From Dissulfurimicrobium hydrothermale (lineage in GTDB: Bacteria > Desulfobacterota > Dissulfuribacteria > Dissulfuribacterales > Sh68), in contig NZ_CP085041.1 of the NCBI RefSeq assembly GCF_022026155.1, positions 962,306 to 1,026,305 of the forward strand: a DNA stretch of 64,000 bases. The letters run 5' to 3'. This document shows positions 11,906 to 34,416 of the stretch, piece after piece. The first letter of the stretch is position 1. Each line of letters opens with the position of its first letter. The notes beneath the pieces are model-generated. The model did not search any database, was not told the DNA's origin, and was given only the letters and a program-made list of their open reading frames with translations. A program made the position numbers and the translations under genes.

Positions 11906-12520
11906 CTAAATCCTTATGACCTTCGTGGCAAGCTGCATAGATGTGACGATGTCGAGCATGTTAGTGGTCTCGCCAATAGCCTTTTTCTCAAGAAGACGGA
12001 AGTGATTGAGGCATGTGCCGCATACCAGTATGTCAACACCTCTGTGTGCAAGCCCTTTTAATTCATCAAGGTGTTCTGAGCCGGTTATGGCGAGCCTTAC
12101 CCCGTTGTTCAGCAGAACGATCCTCCAGAGGTCATCTCCCATTTCCTTGAGCGTGGAAATAAAGTTCTTCATCAGGGCGCGGCCGAGGTCTTCGTCCCCC
12201 TGGCCGAATACATCCGTAGGTATAATGATGAGTATCTTTTGATGTCCTTCTGCGGCCTCTGATCTTTTTTGTCCTGTCCCTTTGGCGCCTAATTCGATGG
12301 CGCATGTGGGGGGTGCCCCACTTATGACGAATACCCCATTTTCTGATGCCTTTACAGCAGTCTCCCAGCCCTGGCTCTTTAAAAAGCGGGTGACGTTTTG
12401 TCTTGATGCCTCATTGTCAACGATGACCTCGATTATTTCGTTCGGATGTGTCTCGATAAGTTCTTTGGCCACAAGTACCGGTTTTGGACATGCAAGGCCG
12501 CGGCAATCCCGTGTTTCCAT
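11906..12520 (-). CDS. yedF: YedF, sulfurtransferase-like selenium metabolism protein
   Basis: A 204-aa two-domain protein. The N-terminal TusA-like domain (about 1-70) begins METRDCRGLACPKPV, with the conserved Cys in CRGLACPKP. The C-terminal DsrE-like domain (about 95-200) carries CGTCLNHF. YedF proteins are associated with selenium use, often near selD. The frame opens at 12532, but the ATG at 12520 has GGTGAAAG upstream and gives the usual start. It lies between the radical SAM gene and the Mla operon on the same strand. Its presence supports a selenium-using genome and bears on the candidate selenoprotein at 34273. Confidence 0.88.
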   Translation of the reverse strand: METRDCRGLACPKPVLVAKELIETHPNEIIEVIVDNEASRQNVTRFLKSQGWETAVKASENGVFVISGAPPTCAIELGAKGTGQKRSEAAEGHQKILIIIPTDVFGQGDEDLGRALMKNFISTLKEMGDDLWRIVLLNNGVRLAITGSEHLDELKGLAHRGVDILVCGTCLNHFRLLEKKAIGETTNMLDIVTSMQLATKVIRI

Positions 12521-12618
12521 ATCTTTCACCATCCCTATGTCGAAGTTAATCTAAACACGTGATGTCGATGTGTCTAATAGAAATTTCGGATATAATTCGT
12601 TGTTTTGATATGATTTTT

Positions 12619-31464: not shown

Positions 31465-31812
31465 TTATGTATCATCGGTTGAGAAATCTATTTTGCCGCC
31501 GCACGTTTCGTGGATTTCAGGTGGGCATCCGGCGACCTTCCAGCAGGGCATGACCTCCAGAAGACGTTTTATCCCAGGGATGCTGATTCCTTCTTCGTGG
31601 ATCAAAGTGCGCAGACATGTTATCCATTGGATGTCGTTTTGTGAATAAAGCCTCCTGGCCCCGCCGTATTTAGGTCTTATCAGCCCTTCTGTTTCATATA
31701 TTCTGAGCGTCCTAGGATGCACGCCTATCATGCGCGCCGCAACCCCTATTGGATATATAGGAGTCTGCGGATCCGGGAAGTCGGTTTGTCTTTTGGGTCT
31801 GATTTTTGCCAT
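31465..31812 (-). CDS. MerR-family regulator with C-x5-C-x7-C motif (paralogue 1)
   Basis: A 115-aa MerR-type regulator. The winged HTH (about 18-85) reads YPIGVAARMIGVHPRTLRIYE, then EGLIRP and ARRLYSQNDIQWITC. After a short helix the C-terminus has PCWKVAGCPPEIHETC, that is C-x5-C-x7-C. With the Cys in WITC this gives four cysteines, all shared with the paralogue at 33845. These could bind a metal or Fe-S cluster, or react with sulfur species (inference). It is transcribed away from the NrfD operon, with a -35-like box and a perfect palindrome upstream that suggest autoregulation. Confidence 0.88.
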   Translation of the reverse strand: MAKIRPKRQTDFPDPQTPIYPIGVAARMIGVHPRTLRIYETEGLIRPKYGGARRLYSQNDIQWITCLRTLIHEEGISIPGIKRLLEVMPCWKVAGCPPEIHETCGGKIDFSTDDT

Positions 31813-32126: not shown

Positions 32127-32197
32127 AATTTATATAAAACAAAGGACAAAAAAAACGAAAATGAGCCATAGATGAATTGGCTGAAAGGAGCCGAAAA

Positions 32198-32437
32198 ATG
32201 AGCGCCCTGACACTATTAGTCCAAAAAATAAATTTATATCTGAAAGATAGTCCGAGAGACAATACACAGACAAAAGATACAGAGGCTTTTAATTTCAGCG
32301 AGGCCTTTTGGTTCACTACGACATTTCTCCTTTTCCTTGCGCTCGGGCCTTTTTCGGCAATCGCTGTGGTCTTTGGGGTACTTTCCCTGGCCGGGAAGGG
32401 TGATGAAGGCAATGTACCATGTGAAGACTGCAATTAA
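32198..32437 (+). CDS. Small membrane protein preceding the NrfD-like gene
   Basis: A 79-aa protein I do not recognise. ATG 32198 has AAGGAG 7 bases upstream and is preferred over the frame opening at 32177. After a polar N-terminal half comes a long hydrophobic stretch (FWFTTTFLLFLALGPFSAIAVVFGVLSL), enough for one long or two short helices, and the end is GNVPCEDCN with a CxxC pair. It lies 33 bases before the NrfD gene, which has its own strong ribosome-binding site. It may be an accessory subunit, with the CxxC as a metal or redox site (inference). Confidence 0.75.
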   Translation: MSALTLLVQKINLYLKDSPRDNTQTKDTEAFNFSEAFWFTTTFLLFLALGPFSAIAVVFGVLSLAGKGDEGNVPCEDCN

Positions 32438-32470: not shown

Positions 32471-33658
32471 ATGGACACGACAAACGTATCGATCGGCTCA
32501 TTGGCTGAACAAAGGATGGCCAGCCCTGTGGTCAACAAACTCACACTGCTGTCATTCTTGCTGATGGCGGCCGGCCTGGGGACAGGCGTAGCTGGCTTTT
32601 TTGTAGGGCATCAGCATCTCTATGCGGTTACAAGAGATGTGCCGTGGGGGATTCTGATTTCTACCTATGCATTTTTCGCGATTACATCCACCGGACTCTG
32701 CCTGTTGGCAGCTATAGGCCATGCCTTCGGCGGGACCCCGGTGGCCCAGTTGGGGAACAGAGCGGTCTATCTCTCTATCATAACGATACTCTCTGCCTTT
32801 TCAGTCATCGGTCTTGAGCTTGAGAGCCCGTGGCGTATGCTTGTTTACAACGTAATCTCGCCCAATCTTACATCCAACATCTGGTGGATGGGTACACTTT
32901 ATGGCCTTGCCGTGGGCTGTATGTTCATCGAATTTATTGCCATATTAACGGGTAGGCTGGGCATGGCGTTGGCTATCGGTGCATTGGGTGCCTTGTCCGA
33001 AGTGGGTGCCAATACGAATCTGGGAGCTGTATTTGCAACACTCACCGCCCGCCCGTTCTGGTACGGGGCGCAGCTTCCGGTCTATTTCCTGTGTGCGGCG
33101 GTCATGTCAGGCGCAGCTGCAATAATACTTTTCACCTATTTGTCCTATAGGCTTAGGGGCGAAGAGGTAGACGATGGCACAATGTCGGGTATACGGAGTG
33201 CAGGCAAGGTGCTTCTTTTGACCATCTTTCTCCTGGCGGTGGCTACTGTGTGGAGAATCCTATCTCTATATACTGGAGGCTCCGAAGAAGGCATAATTGC
33301 CACAAATAACCTGCTTTATGGGCCTCTTTCTACCAATTTCTGGCTTTTTGAAACGGCGATTGGCATTGTGATCCCAATGGTCATCCTTGTCTTTACCCAA
33401 ATAAAGAGCATGCCTGCTATGGCGGCGGCTTCCCTCATGGTCCTTATAGGCGGTTTTTTTCAGAGGTATGACTTGGTGGTTGCAGGCCAACAGGTCCCCC
33501 TCTTTTACGGGTGGGATAATCTGCCGAGTTATGTGGGTTATGCGCCGTCTGCAGGCGAGCTTATGGTAGTCATGGGTGGCATAGGTCTTACTATGACAGG
33601 CTTCTTTATCGGAGAGAGGTTGTTTGGTAAGCTGTTCCGCCAGGCAGGACATCATTAA
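32471..33658 (+). CDS. nrfD: NrfD/PsrC-family quinone-interacting membrane protein
   Basis: A 395-aa integral membrane protein with about ten helices, related to NrfD/PsrC/HybB. The start of the family fold, DVPWGILISTYAFFAITSTG, is clear, followed by a conserved-looking ELESPWRM and SNIWWMGTLYG. Such proteins exchange electrons with the quinone pool and normally work with an Fe-S subunit and a molybdopterin or other catalytic subunit. Neither is encoded here, so this copy is an orphan. AAGGAGG lies 6 bases before the ATG. Sulfur or polysulfide chemistry is plausible but not shown. Confidence 0.88.
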   Translation: MDTTNVSIGSLAEQRMASPVVNKLTLLSFLLMAAGLGTGVAGFFVGHQHLYAVTRDVPWGILISTYAFFAITSTGLCLLAAIGHAFGGTPVAQLGNRAVYLSIITILSAFSVIGLELESPWRMLVYNVISPNLTSNIWWMGTLYGLAVGCMFIEFIAILTGRLGMALAIGALGALSEVGANTNLGAVFATLTARPFWYGAQLPVYFLCAAVMSGAAAIILFTYLSYRLRGEEVDDGTMSGIRSAGKVLLLTIFLLAVATVWRILSLYTGGSEEGIIATNNLLYGPLSTNFWLFETAIGIVIPMVILVFTQIKSMPAMAAASLMVLIGGFFQRYDLVVAGQQVPLFYGWDNLPSYVGYAPSAGELMVVMGGIGLTMTGFFIGERLFGKLFRQAGHH

Positions 33659-33757: not shown

Positions 33758-33809
33758 TAGAGATTAGGATTGCGTATAAAAAGACTGAAAAAGATTTCGG
33801 GCAGGCGAC

Positions 33810-33839
33810 GTCACAGAGATAAGGGTCACAGAGATAAGG
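33810..33839 (+). repeat. Tandem duplication of 15 bp before merR2
   Basis: GTCACAGAGATAAGG occurs twice with no gap. The second copy supplies the AAGG that probably acts as the merR2 ribosome-binding site. Confidence 0.9.
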
Positions 33840-33844
33840 ATGGT

Positions 33845-34264
33845 ATGCACATGGTCACAATGACAGAAGAGGTCCAAAAAAGGTCGAGACACATTGACGA
33901 TACAGGGTCAGGTCCCGTTGAAACGGAACTTTGGCAGCCCATTGATAATGTAGATCCGGACAAGCCTATCTTTTCCATCGGGGCTGCGTCAGCCATGCTG
34001 GAGGTCCATCCTCGAACGCTTCGCATCTATGAAGAGGAGGAATTGATAAGGCCGACGAGACGTGGCCAGCGACGTTATTATTCCCTTAATGACATACAGT
34101 GGATAACATGCCTGAGGTCGATGATACACGACCACGGGGTTAGCATAGCCGGTCTCAAGAAACTGTTGCAGTATACAGCCTGTTGGAATATAGTGAAATG
34201 CCCTATGGAAAAGAGGAAGGTATGTACGGCCTATCATTCACTGGGCCTACTCCATGACAGGTAG
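33845..34264 (+). CDS. MerR-family regulator with C-x5-C-x7-C motif (paralogue 2)
   Basis: A 139-aa paralogue of the gene at 31465. The HTH region has FSIGAASAMLEVHPRTLRIYE, EELIRP, RRYYSLNDIQWITC and SIAGLKKLLQ. The end has ACWNIVKCPMEKRKVC, the same C-x5-C-x7-C spacing as paralogue 1. The N-terminus is longer and polar. ATG 33845 or 33851 follows AAGGA; an upstream TTG at 33770 is less likely. It lies after the NrfD gene and a hairpin, and 8 bases before a tiny membrane-protein ORF. Two paralogues flanking the operon may compete for the same operator. Confidence 0.85.
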   Translation: MHMVTMTEEVQKRSRHIDDTGSGPVETELWQPIDNVDPDKPIFSIGAASAMLEVHPRTLRIYEEEELIRPTRRGQRRYYSLNDIQWITCLRSMIHDHGVSIAGLKKLLQYTACWNIVKCPMEKRKVCTAYHSLGLLHDR

Positions 34265-34272
34265 GTTCTTTT

Positions 34273-34416
34273 ATGCAAGACATCCTGTTGCTCATCTTTA
34301 TTGTCATCGTATGGTTCGGTATCAACCGCTGGCTGCTTCCAAGGTTTGGTGTACCCACCTGAGCTGCCCCTTCTTGCGAGATCGGGTCTCGGTCTAAAAA
34401 GAAAGACAAAAGATAA
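34273..34416 (+). CDS. Candidate small membrane selenoprotein (UGA read-through)
   Basis: ATG 34273 has AGG 7 bases upstream and begins 8 bases after merR2. The first 29 codons give one membrane helix (DILLLIFIVIVWFGINRWLL) and then PRFGVPT, up to TGA at 34360. If TGA is read as selenocysteine, the frame continues U-A-A-P-S-C (U30, C35) and a basic tail (SRSKKKDKR) to TAA at 34414, 47 residues in all. A hairpin of SECIS type begins 8 bases after TGA. The U-x4-C pair could form a selenenylsulfide at the membrane face. Without read-through it is a 29-aa membrane peptide. Selenium use is supported by yedF only. Confidence 0.5.
34371..34403 (+). promoter_or_regulatory. Candidate bacterial SECIS hairpin
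   Basis: Lower stem TTCTT (34371-34375) with AAGAA (34399-34403), an internal loop, upper stem CGAGA (34377-34381) with TCTCG (34387-34391), and apical loop TCGGG. The apical loop begins 20 bases after the TGA. A T-G wobble pair would leave a CGG loop with G near its start, as bacterial SECIS elements prefer. Confidence 0.45.

Follow-up and report, generated by a model that had tools for sequence, protein, structure and literature searches.

A small bacterial membrane protein family with a conserved in-frame UGA that very probably encodes selenocysteine

Within the window, i.e., the whole 64,000-nucleotide stretch of Dissulfurimicrobium hydrothermale DNA that was analysed, a short open reading frame that runs through an in-frame TGA very probably encodes a 47-residue, presumed single-pass membrane selenoprotein with selenocysteine (Sec) at the UGA codon, as judged from the sequence and its relatives. 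It is likely that the family to which it belongs consists of Sec-obligate bacterial membrane microproteins that have no cysteine (Cys) form and that occur in about 40% of the sample of the window's phylum as well as in Planctomycetes and Spirochaetes. On this reading, which includes a doubled Sec-SECIS module in one subclade, the family has been overlooked because discovery has relied largely on Cys homologues and because gene callers truncate such genes at UGA.

The gene and its product

An earlier note on this DNA had described a membrane-helix reading frame of 29 codons that has its own ribosome-binding site, ends in TGA, and then continues for 17 codons to TAA. These coordinates were confirmed, a sequence resembling a ribosome-binding site is present, and the U-x4-C arrangement and basic tail were recovered in the translation (Table 1). 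With TGA read as Sec (U), the product has the layout MQDILLLIFIVIVWFGINRWLLPRFGVPT-U-AAPSCEIGSRSKKKDKR, in which MQDILLLIFIVIVWFGINRWLLPRFGVPT stands before Sec and AAPSCEIGSRSKKKDKR after it (29 + 1 + 17 residues). The hydrophobic helix is followed by a conserved NRW-LP-R/K-G-P-T segment, the W, N, P, and G columns of which are kept in relatives.

Table 1. Features of the selenoprotein locus (positions in the window)
Feature	Position	Strand	Basis and remarks
NrfD-like membrane protein, upstream of merR	32471..33658	+	Pfam NrfD 1.5e-26; neighbour, putative partner at most
MerR-family regulator, directly upstream	33770..34264	+	Pfam MerR_1 9.9e-17; longest ORF, true start may be further in
Shine-Dalgarno-like AGGTAGG	34259..34265	+	7 nt before ATG; overlaps merR stop
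Membrane selenoprotein ORF (29 codons from ATG at 34273, UGA(Sec), 17 codons, TAA at 34414-34416)	34273..34416	+	Frame conserved in relatives; purifying selection after the TGA in this frame only
Codons of hydrophobic, presumed transmembrane helix (about residues 4-18)	34282..34326	+	Sequence; topology inferred from charges
UGA read as selenocysteine, residue 30 (very probable)	34360..34362	+	TGA in 80/80 and 40/40 loci and in frame in all listed full-length-profile matches
Lower stem, 34371-34375 with 34399-34403	34371..34403	+	Predicted from the window sequence; no conservation in relatives
SECIS apical stem-loop, stem 34379-34384 with 34390-34395, loop GGUCU 34385-34389	34379..34395	+	Fold, covariation, published model

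Conservation of the TGA and of the frame beyond it

When 99 related genomes were searched with the read-through product, about 50 homologues were found (E 4e-4 or better), nearly all of which have exactly one in-frame TGA and an alignment that spans it; some of these loci share their genomes with loci of the larger scan described here. To remove bias, profile A1 was confined to the 27 residues before the TGA. A scan of 84,980 species genomes with A1 gave 147 confirmed loci, 80 of which were kept, and the codon following the match was TGA in 80/80, the query itself having ended before this position. The continuation after the TGA is conserved in the kept loci, most commonly as U-[M/L/A/G/I]-[S/A]-x-[S/T/A]-C with a polar tail. 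The phylum was sampled with 395 genomes, 163 of which were matched by A1, and TGA was found in all 40 of the sample loci that were read (one codon later in five of them), a selection weighted towards genomes that lack selA, long open frames, and low scores. When a full-length profile was used in which Cys stands for Sec, 167 of the 395 genomes were matched (142 of the 328 good ones), and every match among those listed (about 150) contains the in-frame TGA.

Cys was found at the Sec position in none of the 80 and 40 loci read nor among the about 150 profile matches listed, the sole test for Cys forms outside the window's phylum being the 84,980-genome scan, which requires the motif [LIV]N[RK]W[LVI][LF]P[KR][LMF]G. 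Thus, the comparison of TGA with TGC and TGT that the earlier note had suggested shows TGA to be conserved in well over 150 relatives, together with the frame that follows it. By record title, the 80 kept loci belong mostly to Deltaproteobacteria/Desulfuromonadales, with 14 from Planctomycetes, three from Spirochaetes, and single loci from KSB1, Chloroflexi, and 'Proteobacteria' bins. On the Chloroflexi-labelled contig (L192), the gene is nearly identical to that of a Desulfuromonadaceae locus (L187), and this contig may be mis-binned.

As judged from pN/pS in 24 close pairs (a set in which one genome pair is entered twice), purifying selection on the codons after the TGA is confined to this frame, for which the value is 0.44; the two alternative frames have values of 1.0 and 1.33. 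This bears directly on the possibility that the TGA is a true stop, so that the gene would encode a 29-residue single-helix peptide and the conservation downstream would come from some other element, e.g., a regulatory RNA hairpin. The 29-residue part alone would indeed make a plausible small membrane protein, it is the more conserved part in the same pairs (pN/pS 0.14), and the fold of the single window sequence, discussed below, is only weakly significant. However, a true stop is extremely improbable given the selection in this one frame, the conservation of U-x4-C and the tail across phyla at the amino-acid level, and the fact that neither TAA nor TAG, which often serve as the final stop, occurs at the TGA position in any relative among these loci and matches.

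Selenocysteine machinery and decoding of the UGA

All of the genes that the earlier note had proposed to look for are present in the genome, i.e., selB (375 bits), selA (8.5e-177), selD, and selC in the form of a tRNA-Sec with the anticodon UCA. Within the selD gene (C1:578294-579217; L237), too, the frame runs through a TGA, as is the case for SelD proteins that contain Sec. Among the 163 family-bearing genomes, 156 have a clear selA match, one has a weak match only, and six have none (G112, G210, G307, G334, G421, and G050). All six carry a tRNA-Sec that exceeds the curated score, so that a gap in the assembly or a divergent SelA is the probable reason, and these genomes were rejected as a refutation. 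It should be noted that selA is found in about 90% of the 395-genome phylum sample, and thus its co-occurrence with the family is to be taken as consistency and not as a strong association.

Decoding of the UGA as Cys or another residue by a suppressor tRNA also has to be considered. In Syntrophobacterales and Desulfobacterales, selC* tRNA-Cys genes are followed by a second selB, and some of these tRNAs have UCA anticodons and might insert Cys at UGA (PMC7609411). The present genome has such a pair outside the window (C1:1461214-1463225; L040, L032), where a tRNA-Sec-like gene with the anticodon GCA is directly followed by a second selB, as in the selC* tRNA-Cys/SelB* arrangement of PMC7609411; by reading of the frames, the genes upstream of this pair resemble a 2-hydroxyacyl-CoA dehydratase subunit and its activator. 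A selC*-type tRNA with a UCA anticodon was not found in the genome, in which the UCA tRNA is tRNA-Sec, and the selC*-like tRNA, because of its GCA anticodon, does not read this UGA; decoding by a selC*-type tRNA-Cys was rejected on this ground. Moreover, if UGA were read as Cys, relatives with TGC or TGT would be expected, and none occur in the loci read or the matches listed. In addition, the lineages for which selC*-selB* has been named include neither the Planctomycete nor the Spirochaete members. Suppression of this kind is therefore very improbable, and insertion of Sec remains the preferred reading of the UGA.

The SECIS hairpin

The 42 nt after the TGA fold as a two-part hairpin (-10.8 kcal/mol), as had been claimed, with a lower stem that begins 8 bases after the TGA, an upper stem, and an apical loop, GGUCU, that lies 22 nt after the UGA. 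Compared with chance, the window fold has z = -1.14 (42 nt) or -2.06 (apical 22 nt), and the hairpin evidence from this single sequence is weak. When 19 relatives that share the spacing of the window are compared, compensatory changes are seen in 6/6 pairs of the apical stem, and 93.9% of its cells are paired; neither this percentage nor the covariation score is attained in any of 500 shuffles, and in slid controls the paired share is 47% or less. The hairpin is thereby raised well above chance. The lower stem has no covariation support in relatives and does no better than controls (41%), and thus the two-part aspect is probably incidental, whereas the apical stem-loop is conserved. Across 99 members, the hairpin is stronger than expected from synonymous-codon shuffles (set z about 16); that of the window is marginally stronger than such shuffles and is not significant alone (p 0.18).

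The bacterial SECIS consensus has, 16-37 nt after the UGA, an upper stem of 4 bp or more and an apical loop of 3-9 nt with a G in its first two positions (PMC13188914). In members of the family, the distance from the TGA to the start of the loop is mostly 19-24 nt, and GUC, GGA, GGUC, and CGUGA are examples of the loops. A simple implementation of the published model, made for this analysis, accepts 81/100 members, the window included, and 82/400 ordinary TGA stops, and about a fifth of the members fail it. Very probably, SelB with Sec-tRNA(UCA) recognises the apical hairpin 22 nt after the UGA, Sec is inserted at residue 30, and translation continues to the TAA. Taken together, the conserved TGA and frame, the SECIS element, and the Sec machinery strongly support the original proposal that the TGA encodes Sec in a new small membrane selenoprotein. 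Neither of the two findings that the earlier note would have taken as a refutation, i.e., absence of selB/selC or loss of the post-TGA frame in relatives, was obtained.

One subclade (members of family f9; L016, L023, L024, L026-L030) departs from the single-Sec form. Here, the first Sec is not followed by Cys, and the protein continues through a basic linker ending in VPT or IPT to another TGA, where a tail of the U-DGPSCSIGGQSKK type (U-x4-C) begins. The second hairpin is accepted by the SECIS test in 6/8 members, and the double form looks like a duplicated Sec-SECIS module. As a separate observation, two TGA codons lie within one full-length-profile match in genome G184.

Gene neighbourhood and possible function

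In the window, merR ends 8 nt before the ATG of the selenoprotein gene, and several families within the order to which the window belongs share the NrfD-MerR-U arrangement in synteny. The earlier note had proposed that the selenoprotein is a redox sensor or relay for this adjacent NrfD/MerR unit. Such a role would be in keeping with the 4Fe-4S ferredoxin and cytochrome c7 genes that lie upstream in the double-Sec subclade, and with the histidine kinase gene found upstream in 14/80 loci, nearly always with its response regulator. However, as a function of the family it is unlikely and finds no support, because the NrfD/MerR neighbourhood is confined to only some families of the window's order. 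Across the loci compared, no family-wide operon partner and no neighbour common to the whole family were found, in 27/78 loci the closest gene upstream has the opposite orientation, and the other contexts comprise a cupin gene with an FdhA/NuoG-like gene, a Usp (universal stress protein) gene with a TRAP transporter, PHP-domain genes, or unrelated genes. In Desulfuromonadales-type loci (L119, L125, L126, L137, L146, L152, L159, L161, L175, L187, L188, L192, and L195), the genes that precede it encode a HAMP/HisKA histidine kinase and a response regulator of the OmpR type, and in about ten of these loci an LTXXQ (Spy/CpxP-like) gene is located upstream on the opposite strand. This context hints at an envelope-stress setting.

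Several further genes were observed in the window. A second MerR-like gene (31465-31812, minus strand) lies on the other side of the NrfD gene, and its N-terminal half is very similar to that of the merR beside the selenoprotein gene. Just before the NrfD gene there is an 86-codon open reading frame (32177-32437, plus strand) with a hydrophobic stretch and no Pfam match. At a greater distance, 11906-12550 (minus strand) encodes a YedF-like protein with a TusA-type CPKP motif and a C-terminal domain; the yedF that had been reported in the window thus looks right, by its motif only.

Because its neighbours differ by lineage, a stand-alone membrane-tethered redox selenol is preferred over an NrfD/MerR relay, and the gene itself appears to behave as a stand-alone unit. 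After the hydrophobic helix, the peptide would have its NRW-LPR-G-PTU segment next to the membrane and then end in a short polar tail, in which Cys lies five positions downstream of Sec. In 101 members, the residues before the helix are neutral or acidic and those after it basic, a pattern that, by the positive-inside rule, probably places Sec on the cytoplasmic side of the membrane and the N-terminus outside. Cys is found at position +5 from Sec in 88/101 members and is absent or shifted in 13/101. The tethered selenol might form a selenylsulfide with the nearby Cys, or it might reduce oxidised thiols, persulfides, or peroxides at the membrane; the chances that this is what the protein does are about even.

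Novelty and significance

The family is absent from all catalogues that could be checked. Eleven members scanned against NCBIfam gave chance-level matches only, the window protein has no Pfam match, and Rfam gave nothing on the window at gathering scores. Table 1 of a 2026 review (PMC13188914), which lists 119 prokaryotic selenoprotein families/subfamilies, including those of Haft and Tolstoy 2025 and of Zhang and Gladyshev 2007, contains no family that combines a single N-terminal helix with a PTU motif in a protein of about 50 residues. No earlier description was found in the literature searched, and one elsewhere is possible.

It may be asked why so common a family has stayed unlisted. Gene callers read UGA as a stop and thus truncate the gene. 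In addition, reliance on Cys homologues may explain the omission, because the filter of deep-Sep 2025, by the account of its authors, may discard selenoproteins that lack them, all known selenoproteins seeming to have Cys homologues (PMC12013277), and a 2007 screen described Cys-less selenoprotein families as scarce (PMC1914089). Although Sec insertion through UGA and SECIS is already known, the family itself is new to the checked catalogues and goes against the working rule by which a selenoprotein is expected to have homologues with Cys (PMC12013277). As current prediction filters depend on this rule, further Sec-only families may have gone unnoticed for the same reason. If the family is indeed Sec-obligate, selenium does something here that sulfur cannot, and because the protein is very small and has no thioredoxin fold, it would offer a simple system for analysing why selenium is kept where sulfur is available. 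These findings also suggest that the selenoproteins and small proteins listed for Desulfobacterota and for some Planctomycetes are too few.

Comparison with known systems

The recoding system of selC* tRNA-Cys with SelB* (PMC7609411) is also present in this genome, yet its tRNA has the anticodon GCA here, so the UGA of this gene is not read by it. KCU-star, UXX-star, and other short selenoproteins of NCBIfam resemble the present family in being short with Sec near the C-terminus, whereas here PTU-x4-C follows a membrane helix and no model matched in the 11 members. In eukaryotes, SELENOK and SELENOS are likewise small, cross the membrane once, and have Sec in the short polar tail that follows the helix. 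This likeness would be an analogy of build only: sequence, size, SECIS type, and host domain all differ, and common descent is not indicated.

With the catalogued prokaryotic selenoproteins (PMC13188914), the family shares the in-frame UGA for Sec followed by a bacterial SECIS, the Cys close to Sec that is seen in many redox members, and anaerobic, selenoprotein-rich hosts. However, catalogued families are mostly of the UxxC or CxxU type and seem to have Cys homologues (PMC12013277), whereas the membrane family is mainly U-x4-C and none were found for it. With regard to the hairpin, no conserved lower helix was found here, in contrast to the E. coli fdhF and fdnG elements; nonetheless, the present SECIS is like these elements and like the bacterial consensus (PMC13188914), in its apical GGUCU-type loop, its stem, and its distance from the UGA.
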